Source: Gemmatimonadaceae bacterium (GTDB taxonomy: Bacteria > Gemmatimonadota > Gemmatimonadetes > Gemmatimonadales > Gemmatimonadaceae). From it: a stretch of DNA of 32,594 nt. This document shows positions 19,263 through 27,763 of this stretch, one piece after another (the first letter of the stretch is position 1; each line of letters begins with the position of its first letter). A program made the position numbers and the translations under genes. The stretch covers positions 1-32,594 of the forward strand of contig JACCRF010000074.1 in the NCBI GenBank assembly GCA_013813715.1. The letters are read 5' to 3'. The notes beneath the pieces are model-generated. The model worked only from the letters and a program-made list of their open reading frames with translations, was not told where the DNA came from and did no database searches.

Positions 19263-20549
19263 ATGACATACATCGATCCCCGCATTCGCCGGCGACTCTC
19301 ACAGACCGCGCGTCTAGTCCCGGCCCTCGTACTCTTCGCCTGCATCGAGTTCAAGGACGCGGACACCGAGAAGACCACCGCATCCGATTCGGCAGCCGCA
19401 GCACCGGTCACTTTCGACCCAAACGATATCTCGGCGCCCTCGTATGAGTCCTTCGCGCTCGACACTGCCGGCACGGGCGAGCGGCTGGCCAGGTTGTCGC
19501 GATACGACAGTTCTTTCAAGAGAATCTCACCGGCAACCGCTGCCGCGAGTATCGGCCGATTCCCCGCCAGCATTCCACCCCAGGGTCCAGCCACTCTCCA
19601 CATCCAGATTCTCCTCGACCGGGCCGGCTTTTCGCCTGGCATTCTGGACGGCGGCTGGGGTGACAATGCGGCCCACGCCTTGAAATGGTTCAGAGTAGCC
19701 AACGGTATCGACACGGCGTCTGCCGGGTCAACCGATTCGAGTGCCGCTCTCGATGAGGCTACGTATCAGCGTCTGACAGCTGCCACCGGATCGGCCCCCG
19801 TGATGACCCACTACATCGTGACGGCGGAGGACCTACAGGGGCCGTTCGTGCAGATCCCGGAACGGGTGTACGACCAGGCCGAACTGCCCTGCATGTGCTA
19901 CTCCACCCCCGCGGAAGCGATCGCCGAGCGGTTCCACACCTCCGAGAAAGTCCTCGCGCAGTTGAATCCACGCGTGCAGATGGCTTCACTCCGCACTGGG
20001 GCGCGGCTGATGGTGCCGAATGTCGCGGAGGACGACGGCACTCCGCCGCGCTCTCCTGCGGATACATCGCGATCGAGCGATTCCGCCGCACAGCGGGCCG
20101 GACCTTCCCGCGATACCGCGGCTCGCCAGGCTTCTGGCGCCATCGCCCGGCTCATCGTGTCGCGAACAGGATTCTGGCTCCACGCGGTCGATGCATCGGG
20201 TAAAGTCCTCTATCACTTCCCCTCTACGCTTGGCGCCGGATATGATCCCTCACCCACCGGCGATTACCGCATCACGAACATCGCGCAGGATCCCACGTTT
20301 CACTATCAGCCGAAGCTGTTCGCAGAAGTTTCCGACGACAAGCCAGAGGCCCGGCTGCCGAAGGGTCCCAACTCGCCCGTCGGCGTCGTGTGGATGGCTA
20401 TCTCCAAGCCACACTATGGCATCCACGGCACCTCAGCGCCGGAGACGATTGGCTACGAAAATTCACATGGATGCGTGCGGCTCACCAACTGGGATGCGAG
20501 AAAGCTGTCACGACTGGTCAGTGCCGGAACCCCGGTGGAGTTTCAGTAG
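19263..20549 (+). CDS. L,D-transpeptidase with peptidoglycan-binding and LysM-like domains, lipoprotein (LDT1)
   Basis: The 428-residue protein has an N-terminal lipobox LFAC (Cys27) after a basic n-region. A peptidoglycan-binding domain of the PG_binding_1 type follows at about residues 112-145 (LHIQILLDRAGFSPGILDG, then GWGDNAAHALKWF). A LysM-like module at about 180-255 ends 'LAQLNP' and 'GARLMVPN'. The C-terminal YkuD domain (about 295-428) has H388 in 'YGIHGTS' and the catalytic C404 in 'SHGCVRLTN'. It cross-links meso-diaminopimelate residues of neighbouring peptide stems or attaches proteins to peptidoglycan. A Ser/Thr/Asp-rich linker precedes the catalytic domain. Its closest relative is LDT2 at 26684-27763. 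It diverges from rpsL and converges on the TonB receptor gene, 29 bases apart. Confidence 0.9.
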   Translation: MTYIDPRIRRRLSQTARLVPALVLFACIEFKDADTEKTTASDSAAAAPVTFDPNDISAPSYESFALDTAGTGERLARLSRYDSSFKRISPATAAASIGRFPASIPPQGPATLHIQILLDRAGFSPGILDGGWGDNAAHALKWFRVANGIDTASAGSTDSSAALDEATYQRLTAATGSAPVMTHYIVTAEDLQGPFVQIPERVYDQAELPCMCYSTPAEAIAERFHTSEKVLAQLNPRVQMASLRTGARLMVPNVAEDDGTPPRSPADTSRSSDSAAQRAGPSRDTAARQASGAIARLIVSRTGFWLHAVDASGKVLYHFPSTLGAGYDPSPTGDYRITNIAQDPTFHYQPKLFAEVSDDKPEARLPKGPNSPVGVVWMAISKPHYGIHGTSAPETIGYENSHGCVRLTNWDARKLSRLVSAGTPVEFQ

Positions 20550-20578: not shown

Positions 20579-23500
20579 TCACCGCTCCGGGCGTTCTCTC
20601 CCTCCCCTTCTTCCCTGGCCCTCCCGATCGCGGTTGGACTGGAACGGCTCCTTGATACGCCTCGGAACCTTCGCCCACTGCTCCGGCGTCAGCAAGGACT
20701 CGGCGTTCTTTACCGCCTTCTCCGTTACCGTCCGCCCTTCCTCGATCCGGTCTCGCATGCTCTGGGCAAGTTGCCGTGCGTCGCCGCTGCGAGCGCTCTG
20801 GCCTCCGAGGCTCTCGGCGATAGAACCGATGACCGTATCGGCCTCCGCCTGGAGCGAATCGCCCAACACCTTGAGCGTTGCCTTCTGTTCTGTGGTCAAC
20901 TGGATCTGGAGAGAGTCATCCAGCTGGAGGATCTGGTGATAAGGGTTCGGAATGGCGCGGGCGAGCCGTTGTCTGAACTCGGCCACGCTCCCGCGGCCTC
21001 CCCCTTCGCGGCCAAACGCAGCATTCACCTGCTGCCGTCCGGCATCCGGCCCAAGCGTAAGACGTCCCTGCAAGGCGAGTTGGAAGGGAACGCGGAAAGG
21101 GTTCCGCGTCCCCGCCGCGCCGAAATGTTCGTTGACCTGGTAGCGAAACCGGGCCGACGCGGGATCGAAGCCTCGGACGTACAACAGGGTTCGGTCCGGA
21201 TACACAGGTTGTCCCCAACCCTTGAGGCGATTGCCATTGAAAAGCTGATCGAAGCCGGCGAGGGTATTGATCGAGACAAGCGATAATGTGAGCCTGCGCT
21301 GGAGCCCGAGCACGTCCGGGCGGACATTTGCCTGCAGATCGAGAGTCGGAGACCATGGAGCAGAGCAGCTGTTGCGGGCGGCAACGGAGCCCGTCTGTTT
21401 CCGAATGCAGTCGCGGGCGCGCTCGGGCGCGGTCGCGAGCAGGCGAGCCATGCCCGCCCCGCTCGCCGAATCGGGGGCGACCCTGGGGTCGAAAATGAAT
21501 GGGCGATCGTTGCGGTGCCCGTCCCCGTTTACGTCGCCGCCCACGATGGGAGTGTAGAATCCGCCAGAGATAATACGCGCGACCGCGGTCAACTCCAGGG
21601 CTGGCATTACCGGCACTGTCACGGTTCCCACCAGTAAATGACGGCGCTCTTGGTCGCTCGTGCCCCACTCGGCGCGGTTGGGATTGCCCGCCGTCGTTGC
21701 ACCGCCCCCTCCACCGCCGAACCCTCCGCCCCCCGCGCCGCCAGTCACCCGCCCGAACGTCGCGAGTCCCTGAACCTCGTCTCGCGAGCGTGTGTAGGTA
21801 TAGGATGCGTTGAATATCGCTCTGTTCGCCAGTCCGTTAAGGGTCACGCTGGCCTGTCGCGTGTCGGAGGTCAGCTCCGAAGTGACCTCGCTCACGGCTC
21901 CGAATCGGGGTGAAAGCCTCGAGCCGCTCATTGAGATCGCCCCGGTTTCCGGGACGATCGATGCAAGCGGCGCGTATACAGGTCGATCGCGCTCAATGCT
22001 GAGCTTGAACTTCGGAATCGTATCGAGATTGAGATCGCGTGCGCTCGTTTGGCCGACGCCGCGCGCGTACGCCACGTCGATCGACAAGGTGTATCGCTCA
22101 GCAAACCGTCGGTTGTACCCGAGCGAGCTCCGCCAGGCCCTCGGCGCCCCGAAATCCTCGTTGAACACAGTCACGTTCCGCCTCTCGGTCCCGAATACCT
22201 GCGAAGTTCCATTGCAAGAATCTGGAATCGAACCGGGATCACGCAGGAATGCTTCCCAATCGGGCGCCGGGACCGTCGATCCAACGCACACGAGCGCAGA
22301 CTGCCCCCTGGGCAATCCGGTCGCTTCTATCGCCGATCCGAAGAGCTGTGTCGGCGCGCGCCCGCGAAACTCGCCGAACCCCCCACGAAGGGTACCGAGC
22401 GGACGGCCGCGATCCGTCGGCCCAACCGAGTATGAAAAGCCTACACGGGGACTCAGGTGAACATCTGTCGGGAATTGGTCGGTTCTCCGCCCGAAGATGG
22501 AATCAACCACCGGATTGTAGGCGGGTACATCCGGAAATCGCGAGCCCTCGAGTCTTACGCCGTAGGTCAGCTGCAGCGCGGACGACGCTTTCCACGAATC
22601 GCCCAAGTACACCGCCCCGTTGAATCCTCGGACGTTCCTCTCGCGACTCGAAAGCGTGCGTGTGAATTGCGTGGCCTGGCCTGTCTCGAAATCCGCAAGC
22701 GAGTTGAACAGAAAGGTGCCGAGAACGTTGGCCGATGACACGTTGATCGCCCGGTCCTCGTTGGCAAGCACTCCCAGCTTTATGCGGTGGGCGCCGCCTT
22801 CGGAAACCCGGGAGATCTCGTTGCTGACCTCGGTGAAGCGCGTTCGCGATTCCTGGGGCAGAGCCGAATTTACGCCGAACTGGAGAGTCGATATTCCGAG
22901 AGTGCCGTCGGTGAGGTTCGACGTAACGACAACCCTGCCACTCGGCACCTGAAGATACGGCTCCGTATTCCGGGTATCCAATGACCGATAGGCACGAAGC
23001 TCGTTGATGACGCCGCTCCAGTTCGACGTGAGACTGATCATCCCGCCGCCCCCGCCGCTTCTGAAATTCCCGCCGTTATGGGGCACCGAGAAAGGCGTGA
23101 TTCGGCTGGCGTCCTGGATCGTTCCACGCCAGTCCCCCCGCAGCATCAGACTGTGTGTGTCGCCGAGATTGTAGTCGAGCCGGACGAGCGCGGAGGCGTT
23201 GTCGTTCAGTCGTTCTGCGGGGATGTCGGAAAGTGACGGCTGAAGCCCGAACCGGTTCAGCAGGCTGATAAACCGGTTGACCGAATCAGCATTGGTACCG
23301 AGCCGTTGCAACGCACGAGGATCCGCCGCCAGAAGCGATTGCAGCGGATCAGTTCGATGCAGCAGCGAGAATGCCCCGAAGGCAAGGAGCTTGTCCTGGA
23401 CTATCGGGCCGCCCAGTCCGACGCTGAGCTGGTTCTGCGTGTATTGCTGGACGGAGGCGTTCTCCGCATCGTCCGCGAACTCGAGCGAGGGATCCCGCAG

Positions 23501-24268
23501 GGCGTAGCTGAGGGAGCCCTGAAAGGCATTCGTCCCGCTGCGCGTCGTACTTGCGATCTGGCCCCCGGTGAACTGCCCGCGAGCGACGTCGTACGTGCTC
23601 GTGATGACGCGGGTGTTGCGCAGTGCCTCCGAAGGCACGCTGCCGGCGCCGAAGCTGAGCCCGTCGAGAGTGATGCTGTTCTGATCGGCCGGCTGTCCAG
23701 CTACCGAGAAAGAGGCTGGCGTCGAATCTGTGCCGGCGATCCCGACGACTCCTGCGGCTAGCGTCGCAAGTGCGTTCAGGTCGCCGGGGTCGATCGGCAG
23801 CCGGTTCACAAGTCCCGGGTTGAGTCCGCGCTCGGAAGCTCCGGGTTCGCCCCGCTGCTGTTCTCTCGGCCGCCCGCGGGCACCACGGACCTCAACGCTC
23901 TGGAGAACCGTTGTCGTGCGACCAAGCGCCAAGTCCGCAACCAGCCGGTCCTCGTCGCCCTGGCGGCTGACTAACACGCGCGCCGGCGCGAATCCGAGGG
24001 AAACAACCTGTACGCGGTAGCTGCCACCTCCATCCGGGAACACGACCGTGTAGCGCCCCGCCGCATTTGTCACCTTCGACCTGGTGATCTGCGACTCGGT
24101 CGAGGTCACTTCCACACGCGCTCCGGTGACCGGCTTGCCGTCCGGACCAGTGACCTGCCCCATGATGATGTCGGTCGTCGACCCCACCTGCGCGTAAGCC
24201 TGTCCGGAGACCAGCATCGAGGCGAAAAGCATCAAGCACGAAGCAGCAAGCGGTTTCAGAAAACGCAT
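20579..24268 (-). CDS. TonB-dependent receptor with carboxypeptidase-like N-terminus and a Spy-like C-terminal extension
   Basis: The 1,229-residue outer-membrane transporter begins at ATG 24268 with a signal peptide cleaved near 'AYAQ'. Residues 30-115 are a carboxypeptidase-regulatory (beta-sandwich) domain, with 'GQVTGPDGKPVTGARVEV' and 'TNAAGRYTVVF'. A plug domain covers about 140-240 (ITLDGLSFGAGSVPSEALRN, GGQIASTTRSGTN), and the rest to about 1,073 is barrel, ending in the strand 'PFQLALQGRLTLG'. Unlike ordinary receptors it does not end there. Another 155 or so residues follow, with 'LTTEQ' at 1124-1128, 'LTPEQ' at 1193-1197 and an Arg/Gly-rich tail. A Gly-rich loop (GGAGGGGFGGGGGG) lies in the barrel. 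It imports large or scarce nutrients using TonB energy; the ligand is unknown. Confidence 0.92.
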   Translation of the reverse strand: MRFLKPLAASCLMLFASMLVSGQAYAQVGSTTDIIMGQVTGPDGKPVTGARVEVTSTESQITRSKVTNAAGRYTVVFPDGGGSYRVQVVSLGFAPARVLVSRQGDEDRLVADLALGRTTTVLQSVEVRGARGRPREQQRGEPGASERGLNPGLVNRLPIDPGDLNALATLAAGVVGIAGTDSTPASFSVAGQPADQNSITLDGLSFGAGSVPSEALRNTRVITSTYDVARGQFTGGQIASTTRSGTNAFQGSLSYALRDPSLEFADDAENASVQQYTQNQLSVGLGGPIVQDKLLAFGAFSLLHRTDPLQSLLAADPRALQRLGTNADSVNRFISLLNRFGLQPSLSDIPAERLNDNASALVRLDYNLGDTHSLMLRGDWRGTIQDASRITPFSVPHNGGNFRSGGGGGMISLTSNWSGVINELRAYRSLDTRNTEPYLQVPSGRVVVTSNLTDGTLGISTLQFGVNSALPQESRTRFTEVSNEISRVSEGGAHRIKLGVLANEDRAINVSSANVLGTFLFNSLADFETGQATQFTRTLSSRERNVRGFNGAVYLGDSWKASSALQLTYGVRLEGSRFPDVPAYNPVVDSIFGRRTDQFPTDVHLSPRVGFSYSVGPTDRGRPLGTLRGGFGEFRGRAPTQLFGSAIEATGLPRGQSALVCVGSTVPAPDWEAFLRDPGSIPDSCNGTSQVFGTERRNVTVFNEDFGAPRAWRSSLGYNRRFAERYTLSIDVAYARGVGQTSARDLNLDTIPKFKLSIERDRPVYAPLASIVPETGAISMSGSRLSPRFGAVSEVTSELTSDTRQASVTLNGLANRAIFNASYTYTRSRDEVQGLATFGRVTGGAGGGGFGGGGGGATTAGNPNRAEWGTSDQERRHLLVGTVTVPVMPALELTAVARIISGGFYTPIVGGDVNGDGHRNDRPFIFDPRVAPDSASGAGMARLLATAPERARDCIRKQTGSVAARNSCSAPWSPTLDLQANVRPDVLGLQRRLTLSLVSINTLAGFDQLFNGNRLKGWGQPVYPDRTLLYVRGFDPASARFRYQVNEHFGAAGTRNPFRVPFQLALQGRLTLGPDAGRQQVNAAFGREGGGRGSVAEFRQRLARAIPNPYHQILQLDDSLQIQLTTEQKATLKVLGDSLQAEADTVIGSIAESLGGQSARSGDARQLAQSMRDRIEEGRTVTEKAVKNAESLLTPEQWAKVPRRIKEPFQSNRDREGQGRRGGRERPER

Positions 24269-24640: not shown

Positions 24641-25096
24641 CTACATGTCCTTATTCTGCTTCGCCCGCCCCTCAAGCCGCCCCTCACGTCGCTCCTTGAT
24701 CAAGGCTGCGTTCTTGTCGAAAATTACATGCTGCTCTGGAGTAAGAATCGCGCGGTAATCGGCTTGGGACTTGGTTGTGATATCCAGCATCTTGGCACGG
24801 GCAGCGGCATCCGGCACCCGCTGTCGCTCATCGGCGGGCCGAAGCGCCTGCTTCTCTGCAGCGTACTTGTGCATGATCGTCTGAAGTTGTTCCTGCTGCG
24901 CCGCCGTGAGTTCAATGCCGGCGAACAGCCTTTTCGTCATCCGGGCTTCACGTCCCGCGCCCTGTTCACCCTGCTTGGCACGCTGCTGAGGGGGCGTTCC
25001 TGCTCCCTGCGGCCCCTGCTGCGCCGTCTGCGCGCTCCCCACCGAGGCGACGCCGAGGAATGCGACACCGCCGAATGCCATCCGAATCCAGCTCAT
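24641..25096 (-). CDS. Spy/CpxP-like periplasmic protein with paired LTxxQ motifs
   Basis: The 151-residue protein has a signal peptide (MAFGGVAFLGVASVG, cleavage after 'SAQ'), a Gln/Gly-rich spacer, and a helical, charged region with two LTxxQ motifs, 'LTAAQ' at 63-67 and 'LTPEQ' at 118-122, 55 residues apart. This arrangement is typical of the Spy/CpxP family of periplasmic chaperones and envelope-stress sensors, although the sequence family is broad. Its ATG overlaps the stop of the PlsB-like gene (ATGA at 25093-25096), so the pair is translationally coupled. The downstream TonB receptor carries the same two motifs in its tail. Role in the periplasm is inferred from family. Confidence 0.8.
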   Translation of the reverse strand: MSWIRMAFGGVAFLGVASVGSAQTAQQGPQGAGTPPQQRAKQGEQGAGREARMTKRLFAGIELTAAQQEQLQTIMHKYAAEKQALRPADERQRVPDAAARAKMLDITTKSQADYRAILTPEQHVIFDKNAALIKERREGRLEGRAKQNKDM

Positions 25097-26565
25097 TTTG
25101 TCTCCCGAGAACTTTGACTATTGGTTTGTATTGCCGACGATGGTAATGATACGCTCGAAAGTGAAAAAAGGTTGAAGGAACTTTCGGTCGCAGGCAGCGT
25201 GTCCCGCTTCCGCACTCCTTCCTCGAACGGGCCCACCAGGTGAGCGATGCTGTTGGCGTAGTAGCTGATGAGGCCCCGGTTGCCGGGAAGCACCGCGAAG
25301 CCGTCGCCCGACCGCACGAGCATCCGGCGCATTATCAGCATTCTCAAGGCGCGATCAAAAATCTCCTCGATGTCTCCTTCCGCGCGGATCACCCGCGCAT
25401 TGAGCTCTACCAGCACGTCGCGCATCTCGGCCATTCGCTCGATCAACCGCGCCCGGGGGATGAAGTCGCTGTCGAGTGACTGGATCGCCGCGCACGCGAG
25501 CGGAACCGGCGTGACCGGTATGATGGCTCCTATCCGCGACATCATTGAGTCGCACAACGACTGAACTCTGGCAAGACGCTCGTGGCGCGAAAGATCGAAC
25601 AGCGATTCGCCCTTGCGTTCGTGTTCGGCTAACCATGGAGCGAGCGCCACCGGCTCGCCGATGGTAACCGCCGCACGGCCATAGCGCTTCCACCTCCGAA
25701 ACACGATGCGACCGGCGTTCCACCACAGGTACCGCGCGACCTCGTACATCTGCACGCGCCGCGGTGAGGTGCGTTCGCCCTTCGCAACCGCCAGCTCCCG
25801 CAGCAGCGACCGGTCCTCGAGAACGCGGTCGTAGTTGATCGCGACCGGCACAAGGCATATCCGGTCGCGGTACGCGTCGTCTCGTGCCACGCCGATGATG
25901 TAGTCGAGCAAGCCAATCTTCGCCGGTCGAAGCTTGCCATCCCGTGTCAACCCGCCCTCGGGGAAAATACCCTGCGTCACTCCGTTCCTCGTGATGAGCT
26001 GGACGTACCGCTCGAGCACGGTATGATACAGCGGCTCGCGGAATTTCCTTCGCACGAAATACGAGCCAAAGCTCTTGAACAGATACTCGAGAGGGAACGC
26101 GCGGGCCCACTCGCCGACGGCGTACGAAATCGCAACCCGTCCAGTGAGCACATAGCCGACGAGAACGTAATCGGCGTTCGAACGGTGGTTCATCAAATAG
26201 ACGACGATCGCGTTCTTCGGAAGCGCCGACGACCCTCGGGTTCCATGCTGATCGGCGGATACCTTGTAGAACATGTTGAGCAGCGTCCGGCTGACAAAAT
26301 AGCCGAACCTGTAATACGCGAGGATATTGAAGAACGGCACGATCTCGTCGACGTACCGCGACACCTTCGCAAGCACGGCGGCAGTCTCGAGATCATTCTC
26401 CTGCGCATGCAAGGCGACGGCTGTCGCGACGACCGGGTCGCGGAGGAGCGTCTCGCGGATGGAGTTTCTGTCCGCGAGCTTGAATCGGTCCACATGTGCA
26501 CCGCGCTTCCGGATCGAACGAAGTGCGCTTCGGCTGACTCGTCTTCGCAGAAAGTCGAACGGCAT
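25093..26565 (-). CDS. Glycerol-3-phosphate acyltransferase (PlsB-like)
   Basis: The enzyme acylates glycerol 3-phosphate in the first step of phospholipid synthesis. The four acyltransferase blocks are present: 'NHRSNADY' (H127 and D132), 'GSYFVRRKF', 'FPEGGLTRDGKLR' and 'VPVAINYDRV'. These match the PlsB pattern rather than PlsC, especially the EGG-x-(S/T)-R-x-G part. At 490 residues it is much shorter than the roughly 800-residue Escherichia coli PlsB and lacks much of its flanking region, which is common in other phyla. The N-terminus is basic. It probably sits at the inner face of the cytoplasmic membrane. ATG 26565 has no visible ribosome site. It overlaps the Spy-like gene by four bases. 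Confidence 0.88.
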   Translation of the reverse strand: MPFDFLRRRVSRSALRSIRKRGAHVDRFKLADRNSIRETLLRDPVVATAVALHAQENDLETAAVLAKVSRYVDEIVPFFNILAYYRFGYFVSRTLLNMFYKVSADQHGTRGSSALPKNAIVVYLMNHRSNADYVLVGYVLTGRVAISYAVGEWARAFPLEYLFKSFGSYFVRRKFREPLYHTVLERYVQLITRNGVTQGIFPEGGLTRDGKLRPAKIGLLDYIIGVARDDAYRDRICLVPVAINYDRVLEDRSLLRELAVAKGERTSPRRVQMYEVARYLWWNAGRIVFRRWKRYGRAAVTIGEPVALAPWLAEHERKGESLFDLSRHERLARVQSLCDSMMSRIGAIIPVTPVPLACAAIQSLDSDFIPRARLIERMAEMRDVLVELNARVIRAEGDIEEIFDRALRMLIMRRMLVRSGDGFAVLPGNRGLISYYANSIAHLVGPFEEGVRKRDTLPATESSFNLFSLSSVSLPSSAIQTNSQSSRETK

Positions 26566-26683
26566 ATGGGCGCAGGTATCTCTTGACGCGGATGGGGGCG
26601 ACGGAGGACGTGTCCTACCGGAGTTTTCCCCGGATTTCGATCGAGGCCTTATCTTACGCAGCTTCTCAATTTATCGATCCCGA

Positions 26684-27763
26684 ATGAACCTCGCCGCGCC
26701 CGTCGCCGCCGCTCTGATACTCGTTGTCAGCCAATCCTCCGCCCAGCCGAATGACGTCCGCGCGGCGGGTAAGGCCGTGTTGCGGTCCCGCGCGAATGAC
26801 TCGACATCTGCTCGGCTATCCGAGACGACCCTAAACGCTGCTCTGACACGCTTTCCCGCCCTCGTGTCGCGGAGCGATGCCGTAGCACTCCACATCCAGG
26901 TTCTTCTCGACCGTGCTGGCTTCTCACCGGGCATCATTGACGGCGCGTGGGGAAGCAATGCGGCGAGGGCGCTCAGTTTCTTCGTGACGCCCTATGCACC
27001 GGAGTCCCGCGCCGGTGCAGCAGCTGCGGCGATGACCACCCTCGATAAGCCTGCCTATGAAAGACTACGCATCGCTGCGGGACCGGGGGCAGTCATGGAA
27101 CGCTACACGGTCACCGACGACGACCTTCGCGGCCCGTTCGTCGAAGTTCCGGACGACGTGTATGGGCAGGCTAAGTTGCGGTGCCTTTGCTACTCCTCCG
27201 CCGCCGAGGCGATCGCCGAGCGATTTCACATCTCTCCACGGCTCCTCGCGCGACTGAACCCTGGCACACCGCTCGATCAGCTCTCCCCCGGATTTGCGCT
27301 TCTCGTTCCCAACGTCGACAACGAGACCGAAGCATCCCCGTCGGACACCATGATAGTGGCGCGACTCATAGTGTCACGCACAGGTTTCTGGACCCAGGCC
27401 AGGGACGAATCAGGCCGCATCATCTTCCACTTTCCCTCGACGCTGGGCGGAGGCTTCGATCCATCACCACTGGGAAATTTCAAGGTCGTCAGCGTGTCGC
27501 GGAGCCCGGCCTTTCGCTACCAGCCGAAGCTGTTCTCGGAAGTGCCGGATTCCGAGCCGGAGGCGCTTCTGCCGCCCGGCCCCAACTCTCCGGTGGGCTC
27601 GGTGTGGATCGGCCTCTCCAAGCGCCACTACGGAATACACGGCACGTCGTCGCCCGAGACAATTGGCTACGCGACATCGCACGGCTGTGTCCGCCTGACC
27701 AACTGGGACGCGCTCCAGCTCGCTCTGCTCGTGGAGAGCGGAACGCCGGTGGAGTTCCGCTGA
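26684..27763 (+). CDS. L,D-transpeptidase with peptidoglycan-binding and LysM-like domains, exported (LDT2)
   Basis: The 359-residue paralogue of LDT1 keeps the same domain order: peptidoglycan-binding ('LHIQVLLDRAGFSPGIIDG', about 69-105), LysM-like (about 140-215) and YkuD, with 'YGIHGTSSPETIGY' and 'SHGCVRLTN' (catalytic C335). The shared 'CxCYS' and 'AEAIAERFH' strings are nearly identical in both copies. It differs in having an ordinary signal peptide (cleavage near SSAQ) rather than a lipobox, and lacks the long Ser/Thr linker before the catalytic domain. ATG 26684 leaves a signal peptide without positive charge, and the frame is open upstream (IYRSR), so the start may be a rare codon further up. 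It heads an operon with a glycosyltransferase and two acyltransferases, so it may attach or organise a glycan at the wall. Confidence 0.9.
   Translation: MNLAAPVAAALILVVSQSSAQPNDVRAAGKAVLRSRANDSTSARLSETTLNAALTRFPALVSRSDAVALHIQVLLDRAGFSPGIIDGAWGSNAARALSFFVTPYAPESRAGAAAAAMTTLDKPAYERLRIAAGPGAVMERYTVTDDDLRGPFVEVPDDVYGQAKLRCLCYSSAAEAIAERFHISPRLLARLNPGTPLDQLSPGFALLVPNVDNETEASPSDTMIVARLIVSRTGFWTQARDESGRIIFHFPSTLGGGFDPSPLGNFKVVSVSRSPAFRYQPKLFSEVPDSEPEALLPPGPNSPVGSVWIGLSKRHYGIHGTSSPETIGYATSHGCVRLTNWDALQLALLVESGTPVEFR

Follow-up and report, generated by a model that had tools for sequence, protein, structure and literature searches.

A Spy/CpxP-type LTxxQ domain predicted behind the barrel of Oar-type TonB-dependent receptors of Gemmatimonadota

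In OmpA the barrel is followed, after its last strand, by a periplasmic peptidoglycan-binding domain, and an internal assembly signal is thus precedented. Among TonB-dependent transporters a periplasmic domain after the barrel is, to our knowledge, unusual; these transporters are usually described by what precedes the plug. CnrX, a protein of the Spy/CpxP superfamily, has its anchor in the inner membrane, together with an anti-sigma factor.

Oar of Myxococcus xanthus is needed for the Ton-dependent export of the protease PopC, and carries a CarboxypepD_reg extension that is dispensable (PMC6434023, in the part used here). In that part, the architecture of the N-terminus is the only basis for classing transporters, and nothing is said of a C-terminal domain behind the barrel. 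The receptor analysed here shares with the Oar subclass the CarboxypepD_reg extension, a TonB-box-like segment, a plug and a barrel of the TonB-dependent-transporter fold. It differs from Oar, as described in the same part of that source, by the LTxxQ domain after the barrel, Ton-dependent protein export being shown there for M. xanthus Oar only. From OmpA it differs in having another barrel and an LTxxQ domain in place of the peptidoglycan-binding domain. Receptors of this group keep a folded module after the barrel. An LTXXQ tail on a TonB receptor was not described in the openly accessible full-text literature that was searched.

Receptor architecture

The window, that is, the whole stretch of 32,594 nucleotides that was analysed, contains the receptor and a Spy/CpxP-like neighbour (table 1). 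The receptor was matched in Pfam by OMP_b-brl_4 (149 bits), CarboxypepD_reg (49 bits) and LTXXQ (24.9 bits). Extension, plug and transporter barrel are all present, and the protein is an Oar-type TonB-dependent transporter. At the expected place of the TonB box, the pattern L..V.V[RT]A is conserved in an alignment of 72 receptors. The same 72 sequences served as input for an AlphaFold2 (AF2) model of residues 30-1229 (pLDDT 87.1, pTM 0.84), in which extension, plug and barrel follow one another up to the last strand, and helices only come thereafter. In a Foldseek search with this model the best matches were TonB-dependent transporters (FusA, E 3.6e-26; YddB, E 4.8e-26). The chain runs about 155 residues beyond the last barrel strand, around which P1061, F1062 and G1073 were kept in at least 69 of the 72 receptors. 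In the equivalent columns across receptors the linker varies from 12 to 72 residues with 27% Gly, and G, P and R together make up 62% of the disordered end across tails.

Table 1. Features of the receptor, its Spy-like neighbour and the barrel-less relatives. Positions are those of the window unless a locus is named.
Feature	Position	Strand	Basis
Oar-type TonB-dependent receptor with C-terminal LTxxQ domain, 1229 aa	20579..24268	-	Pfam, AF2, Foldseek
Putative signal peptide, residues 1-26, AYA/QV	24191..24268	-	sequence, by eye
CarboxypepD_reg N-terminal extension, residues 35-108	23945..24166	-	Pfam PF13620, E 7e-13
TonB-box-like segment SVEVRG, residues 124-129	23882..23899	-	named by resemblance
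Last predicted barrel strand FQLALQGRLTL, residues 1062-1072	21053..21085	-	AF2 model residues 1033-1043
Gly-rich linker from barrel to tail domain, residues 1074-1094	20987..21049	-	lower pLDDT
LTxxQ-fold tail domain (predicted), residues 1095-1206	20651..20986	-	PF07813; AF2 helices pLDDT >90; VIA CnrX/STV/CpxP
LTxxQ motif 1, LTTEQ, residues 1124-1128	20885..20899	-	L 65/72, T/S 63/72, Q 69/72
LTxxQ motif 2, LTPEQ, residues 1193-1197	20678..20692	-	L 69/72, T/S 69/72, Q 71/72
Disordered Gly/Arg/Pro-rich end, residues 1210-1229	20582..20641	-	pLDDT <50 from model residue 1183
Spy/CpxP-like secreted LTxxQ protein, 151 aa, neighbour	24641..25096	-	PF07813, 29.7 bits
Barrel-less extension and tail protein, sister species	L047:3910-4893	+	
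Barrel-less extension and tail protein, sister species	L048:6645-7514	-	
Barrel-less extension and tail protein, sister species	L053:8607-9815	+	
Barrel-less extension and tail protein, sister species	L039 (G009:C116)		

Family, fold and spread of the tail domain

The LTXXQ match (PF07813) covers residues 1121-1200 and lies above the curated cut-off of 24.3 bits; the tail alone scored 29.6 bits. When the 72 tails were searched alone, 48 matched PF07813, and the family next in number matched 2. A profile of type-A tails aligned with the Spy-like proteins of the genus (E 1.7e-5, probability 79%), the two motifs falling in register, and the NCBIfam Spy equivalog model (PRK10455) gave no match to the receptor tail. 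When PDB sequences were searched with the tail profile, apolipoproteins and other amphipathic helices were returned (best E 2e-4) and were treated as compositional; among the best 60 matches STV protein was present (E 0.02) and Spy and CpxP were absent, and a single tail sequence gave no relevant match. The whole receptor holds only two LTxxQ copies; shuffling the tail 20 000 times produced two or more in 20 cases.

AF2 modelling of the tail alone gave a pLDDT of 84 (core above 90) and helices at 24-34, 38-49, 55-84, 93-121 and 124-129, where tail residue 1 is receptor residue 1072. One motif lies where helix 55-84 begins, the other directly behind helix 93-121. In VIA-align the highest-scoring match of the same superfamily was CnrX (Z 7.8, 3.0 Å, 100 residues), followed by STV (7.5) and CpxP (6.9). 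Alignments to CpxP, STV and CnrX ranged over Z 6.4-7.8, 92-101 residues and 2.8-3.8 Å, Z values commonly reached by unrelated helical bundles; two unrelated structures, a designed bundle (8.4) and TGA3 (8.1), outscored CnrX. With Foldseek the tail model found nothing at E 0.001, CpxP, STV and CnrX all having E above 1. Because such Z values are common for helical bundles and Foldseek gave no significant match, the structure is taken as consistent with the family, and the assignment is made from the sequence profile. Judged by this profile and the models, the tail is a predicted helical domain of the LTxxQ family (Spy/CpxP/CnrX/STV) behind a complete barrel.

Like PF07813 members of the Spy, CpxP and ZraP type, the tail has a helical hairpin framed by two LTxxQ motifs, a probable periplasmic location and a score above the cut-off, and its predicted fold may resemble that of CpxP. 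It differs from Spy, CpxP and ZraP in being fused to an outer-membrane barrel, in a motif 2 that reads almost invariantly LTPEQWAKVP in the 72 tailed receptors (W1198 in 69, P1202 in 71) and in a net charge near zero. Unlike CnrX, the tails have no conserved His ligands. Since most of the 72 receptors had been picked for having the tail, the motif counts in table 1 measure its conservation and not its frequency.

The preliminary description had placed a helical extension with two LTxxQ motifs after the final strand, and ORF, PF07813 and AF2 agree with it. The structural comparison with Spy/CpxP that it proposed was run and gave a confident helical domain with CnrX, STV and CpxP among the best matches, which alone is not decisive. 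The tail was found neither disordered nor part of the barrel, and its motifs are conserved. A domain after the last strand, which had been called unusual for barrels, is so for TonB-dependent transporters but, given OmpA, not for barrels in general.

The proposed search for other tailed receptors was also carried out, and the tail was present in 40 of 61 relatives and, in a sample of 298 genomes from across the phylum, in 126, mostly ending ORFs of about 1200-1400 aa. The pattern LT[PA]EQW.. matched 17 loci in a scan of about 85 000 species genomes, every one of them in Gemmatimonadota, although the pattern is narrow and other phyla may escape it. A search of genome contigs with a single tail returned no relatives, and a plasmid search with the tail matched only a replicon of Gemmatirosa kalamazoonensis. 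In close receptor pairs the dN/dS of the tail was mostly 0.03-0.2, near that of the barrel, and between more distant subgroups it was about 0.5; identity to the receptor of the window was about 30% for the tail and 48% for the barrel. The tail is under purifying selection in these receptors.

A second receptor group in the source genome (type B; its own paralogue is L043, 1259 aa) has tails homologous to those of type A (E 2.6e-14, probability 98%) with more degenerate motifs. A third group of the phylum (type C, 1082-1123 aa) is tail-less: the chain stops at the last strand with a canonical aromatic end (...LALRYSF/YRF/YAF/YYF; RYSF, RYRF, KYAF). In the tailed groups the terminal aromatic is missing and the last strand is internal. 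Type D showed a weaker likeness (probability 64% over 61 columns), for which no relationship is claimed. Another C-terminal addition in the class was seen at L151:2-4459 (-) in G012, a receptor-like ORF with CarboxypepD_reg and with Kelch repeats C-terminal of the barrel region.

Barrel-less relatives and the possible role of the tail

Small ORFs with a match to the tail turned up in several genomes of the genus. The four proteins that were read are apparently secreted, with a signal peptide (by eye), CarboxypepD_reg, a TonB-box-like SMVE[VI].G and the tail, and neither plug nor barrel was present in any of them. For each half the best matches are type-A receptors, and the tail half matches no other type; PF07813 did not match these tails, and their link to the family runs via the receptor tails. 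Tail dN/dS was about 0.1-0.15 in pairs with usable dS. This suggests that extension and tail are useful together without a barrel. From the phylum-wide presence of the tail and its survival in the barrel-less proteins, these transporters seem to carry a periplasmic binding module of their own, which the barrel-less versions make accessible as a soluble protein. That the soluble form may also bind TonB is a guess from its sequence.

By the topology of TonB transporters the tail domain would be periplasmic: the last strand ends on the periplasmic side, so that the domain would hang at the mouth of the barrel there, with the N-terminal extension and the TonB-binding segment next to it. The explanation that we tentatively prefer is a tethered periplasmic module that binds a client or a partner. 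The tail would bind a client, either protein or peptide, and keep it near the pore; the likeliest candidates are the protein being transported and a partner belonging to the Ton machinery. The soluble form of N-terminal domain and tail found in some species could bind in the same way in trans. Such binding is favoured because the Oar class can export a protease Ton-dependently. The faster divergence of the tail than of the barrel might fit a client-binding part and could also mean weaker constraint. Counted against a binding module was the charge of the tail, near zero (-2 in the window, mean +0.8 across tails) compared with the basic Spy-like proteins of the genus (mean +4.4), which would speak against a Spy-like chaperone in the strict sense. 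A narrower version is quite doubtful, namely that Oar-type transporters of Gemmatimonadota have a built-in periplasmic holdase, which captures protein cargo that the Ton system then drives through the outer membrane, and that some species release the soluble, TonB-box-bearing module without the transporter. If the tail does bind cargo or a Ton partner, it would offer a handle on client selection by protein-moving TonB transporters, a question raised by Oar and PopC.

Client or partner binding was favoured over a CpxP/CnrX-like sensor, oligomerization or anchoring, and an assembly aid, in this order. As a regulatory sensor, the tail would report receptor occupancy or assembly faults by binding a sensor kinase or an anti-sigma factor of the inner membrane. 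CpxP and CnrX, its matches in fold, both have regulatory roles, and a tailed receptor of G265 (L070) has an LTXXQ gene and an ECF sigma gene next to it. However, among the conserved neighbours of tailed receptors neither a sensor kinase nor an anti-sigma gene was found, and those in four congeners are a protein of no Pfam family and a regulator without a sensor domain, so that this role is considered rather unlikely. Its CnrX-like variant, metal sensing, was rejected, as no conserved His or Cys was found in the tails of the 72 receptors.

A structural spacer or oligomerization module, pairing receptors or anchoring them to envelope parts, would suit the helical hairpin with conserved caps and the Gly-rich tethers, and Spy-family domains dimerize; nothing in the sequence points to it specifically, and it is judged improbable. 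About as improbable is an assembly aid, by which the tail would act as an intramolecular chaperone or placeholder for its own barrel at the Bam machinery, or would guard the internal last strand. The tail does follow directly on the last strand, the site of the assembly signal, and the canonical aromatic end of tail-less relatives is missing in tailed ones. Set against this, tail-less receptors of similar size coexist in the same genomes, and the domain is kept under strong constraint in the barrel-less proteins; the tail therefore appears to be more than a barrel-folding aid.

The Spy-like neighbour and gene context

The neighbour had been described as a Spy/CpxP-like protein with the same motif pair, and this is borne out by LTAAQ at 63, LTPEQ at 118 and its PF07813 score; with the NCBIfam Spy model it reached 34.4 bits, far under the cut-off of 174. 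It is a real LTXXQ protein, distantly related to the tail. Orthologues were present in all 19 genus genomes. The Spy-like gene and the tailed receptor lie on separate contigs in G013, G012, G003, G006, G007 and G018, including assemblies of only 20-50 contigs. The functional mirroring of tail and neighbour proposed in the preliminary description was given up in view of the unlinked orthologues in these six genomes and of the phylum-wide tail; because the genes are unlinked in sister species, their adjacency here is regarded as incidental, and a pairing of neighbour and receptor was rejected. That the tail is a copy of the Spy-like gene or its co-functional partner, as two PF07813 members side by side on one strand could suggest, is largely refuted and very improbable, since BLASTP gave only a 17-residue match (E 0.016), the orthologues are on other contigs, and tails are found across the whole class, in most cases with no such gene beside them.

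In the source genome, an ORF of 328 aa at G000:C153:7010-7570 (L044) has two tandem PF07813 domains. In four congeners (loci L063, L064, L065 and L067) a 225-aa protein without a Pfam family and an NtrC-type regulator come after the tailed receptor; the window lacks this context. A receptor-kinase pair was considered at these loci and rejected, the conserved gene encoding an NtrC-type regulator without a sensor domain. In the window, an acyltransferase-like ORF (by eye; 25093-26565, -) overlaps the start codon of the Spy-like gene by four bases; at the orthologous Spy-like genes of the genus the pairing did not recur. Two similar ORFs at 19263-20549 (+) and 26327-27763 (+), both with an L,D-transpeptidase-like HGT...SHGCVRL end (by eye), flank the block of receptor, Spy-like and acyltransferase-like genes, as if the block had split a duplicated gene.
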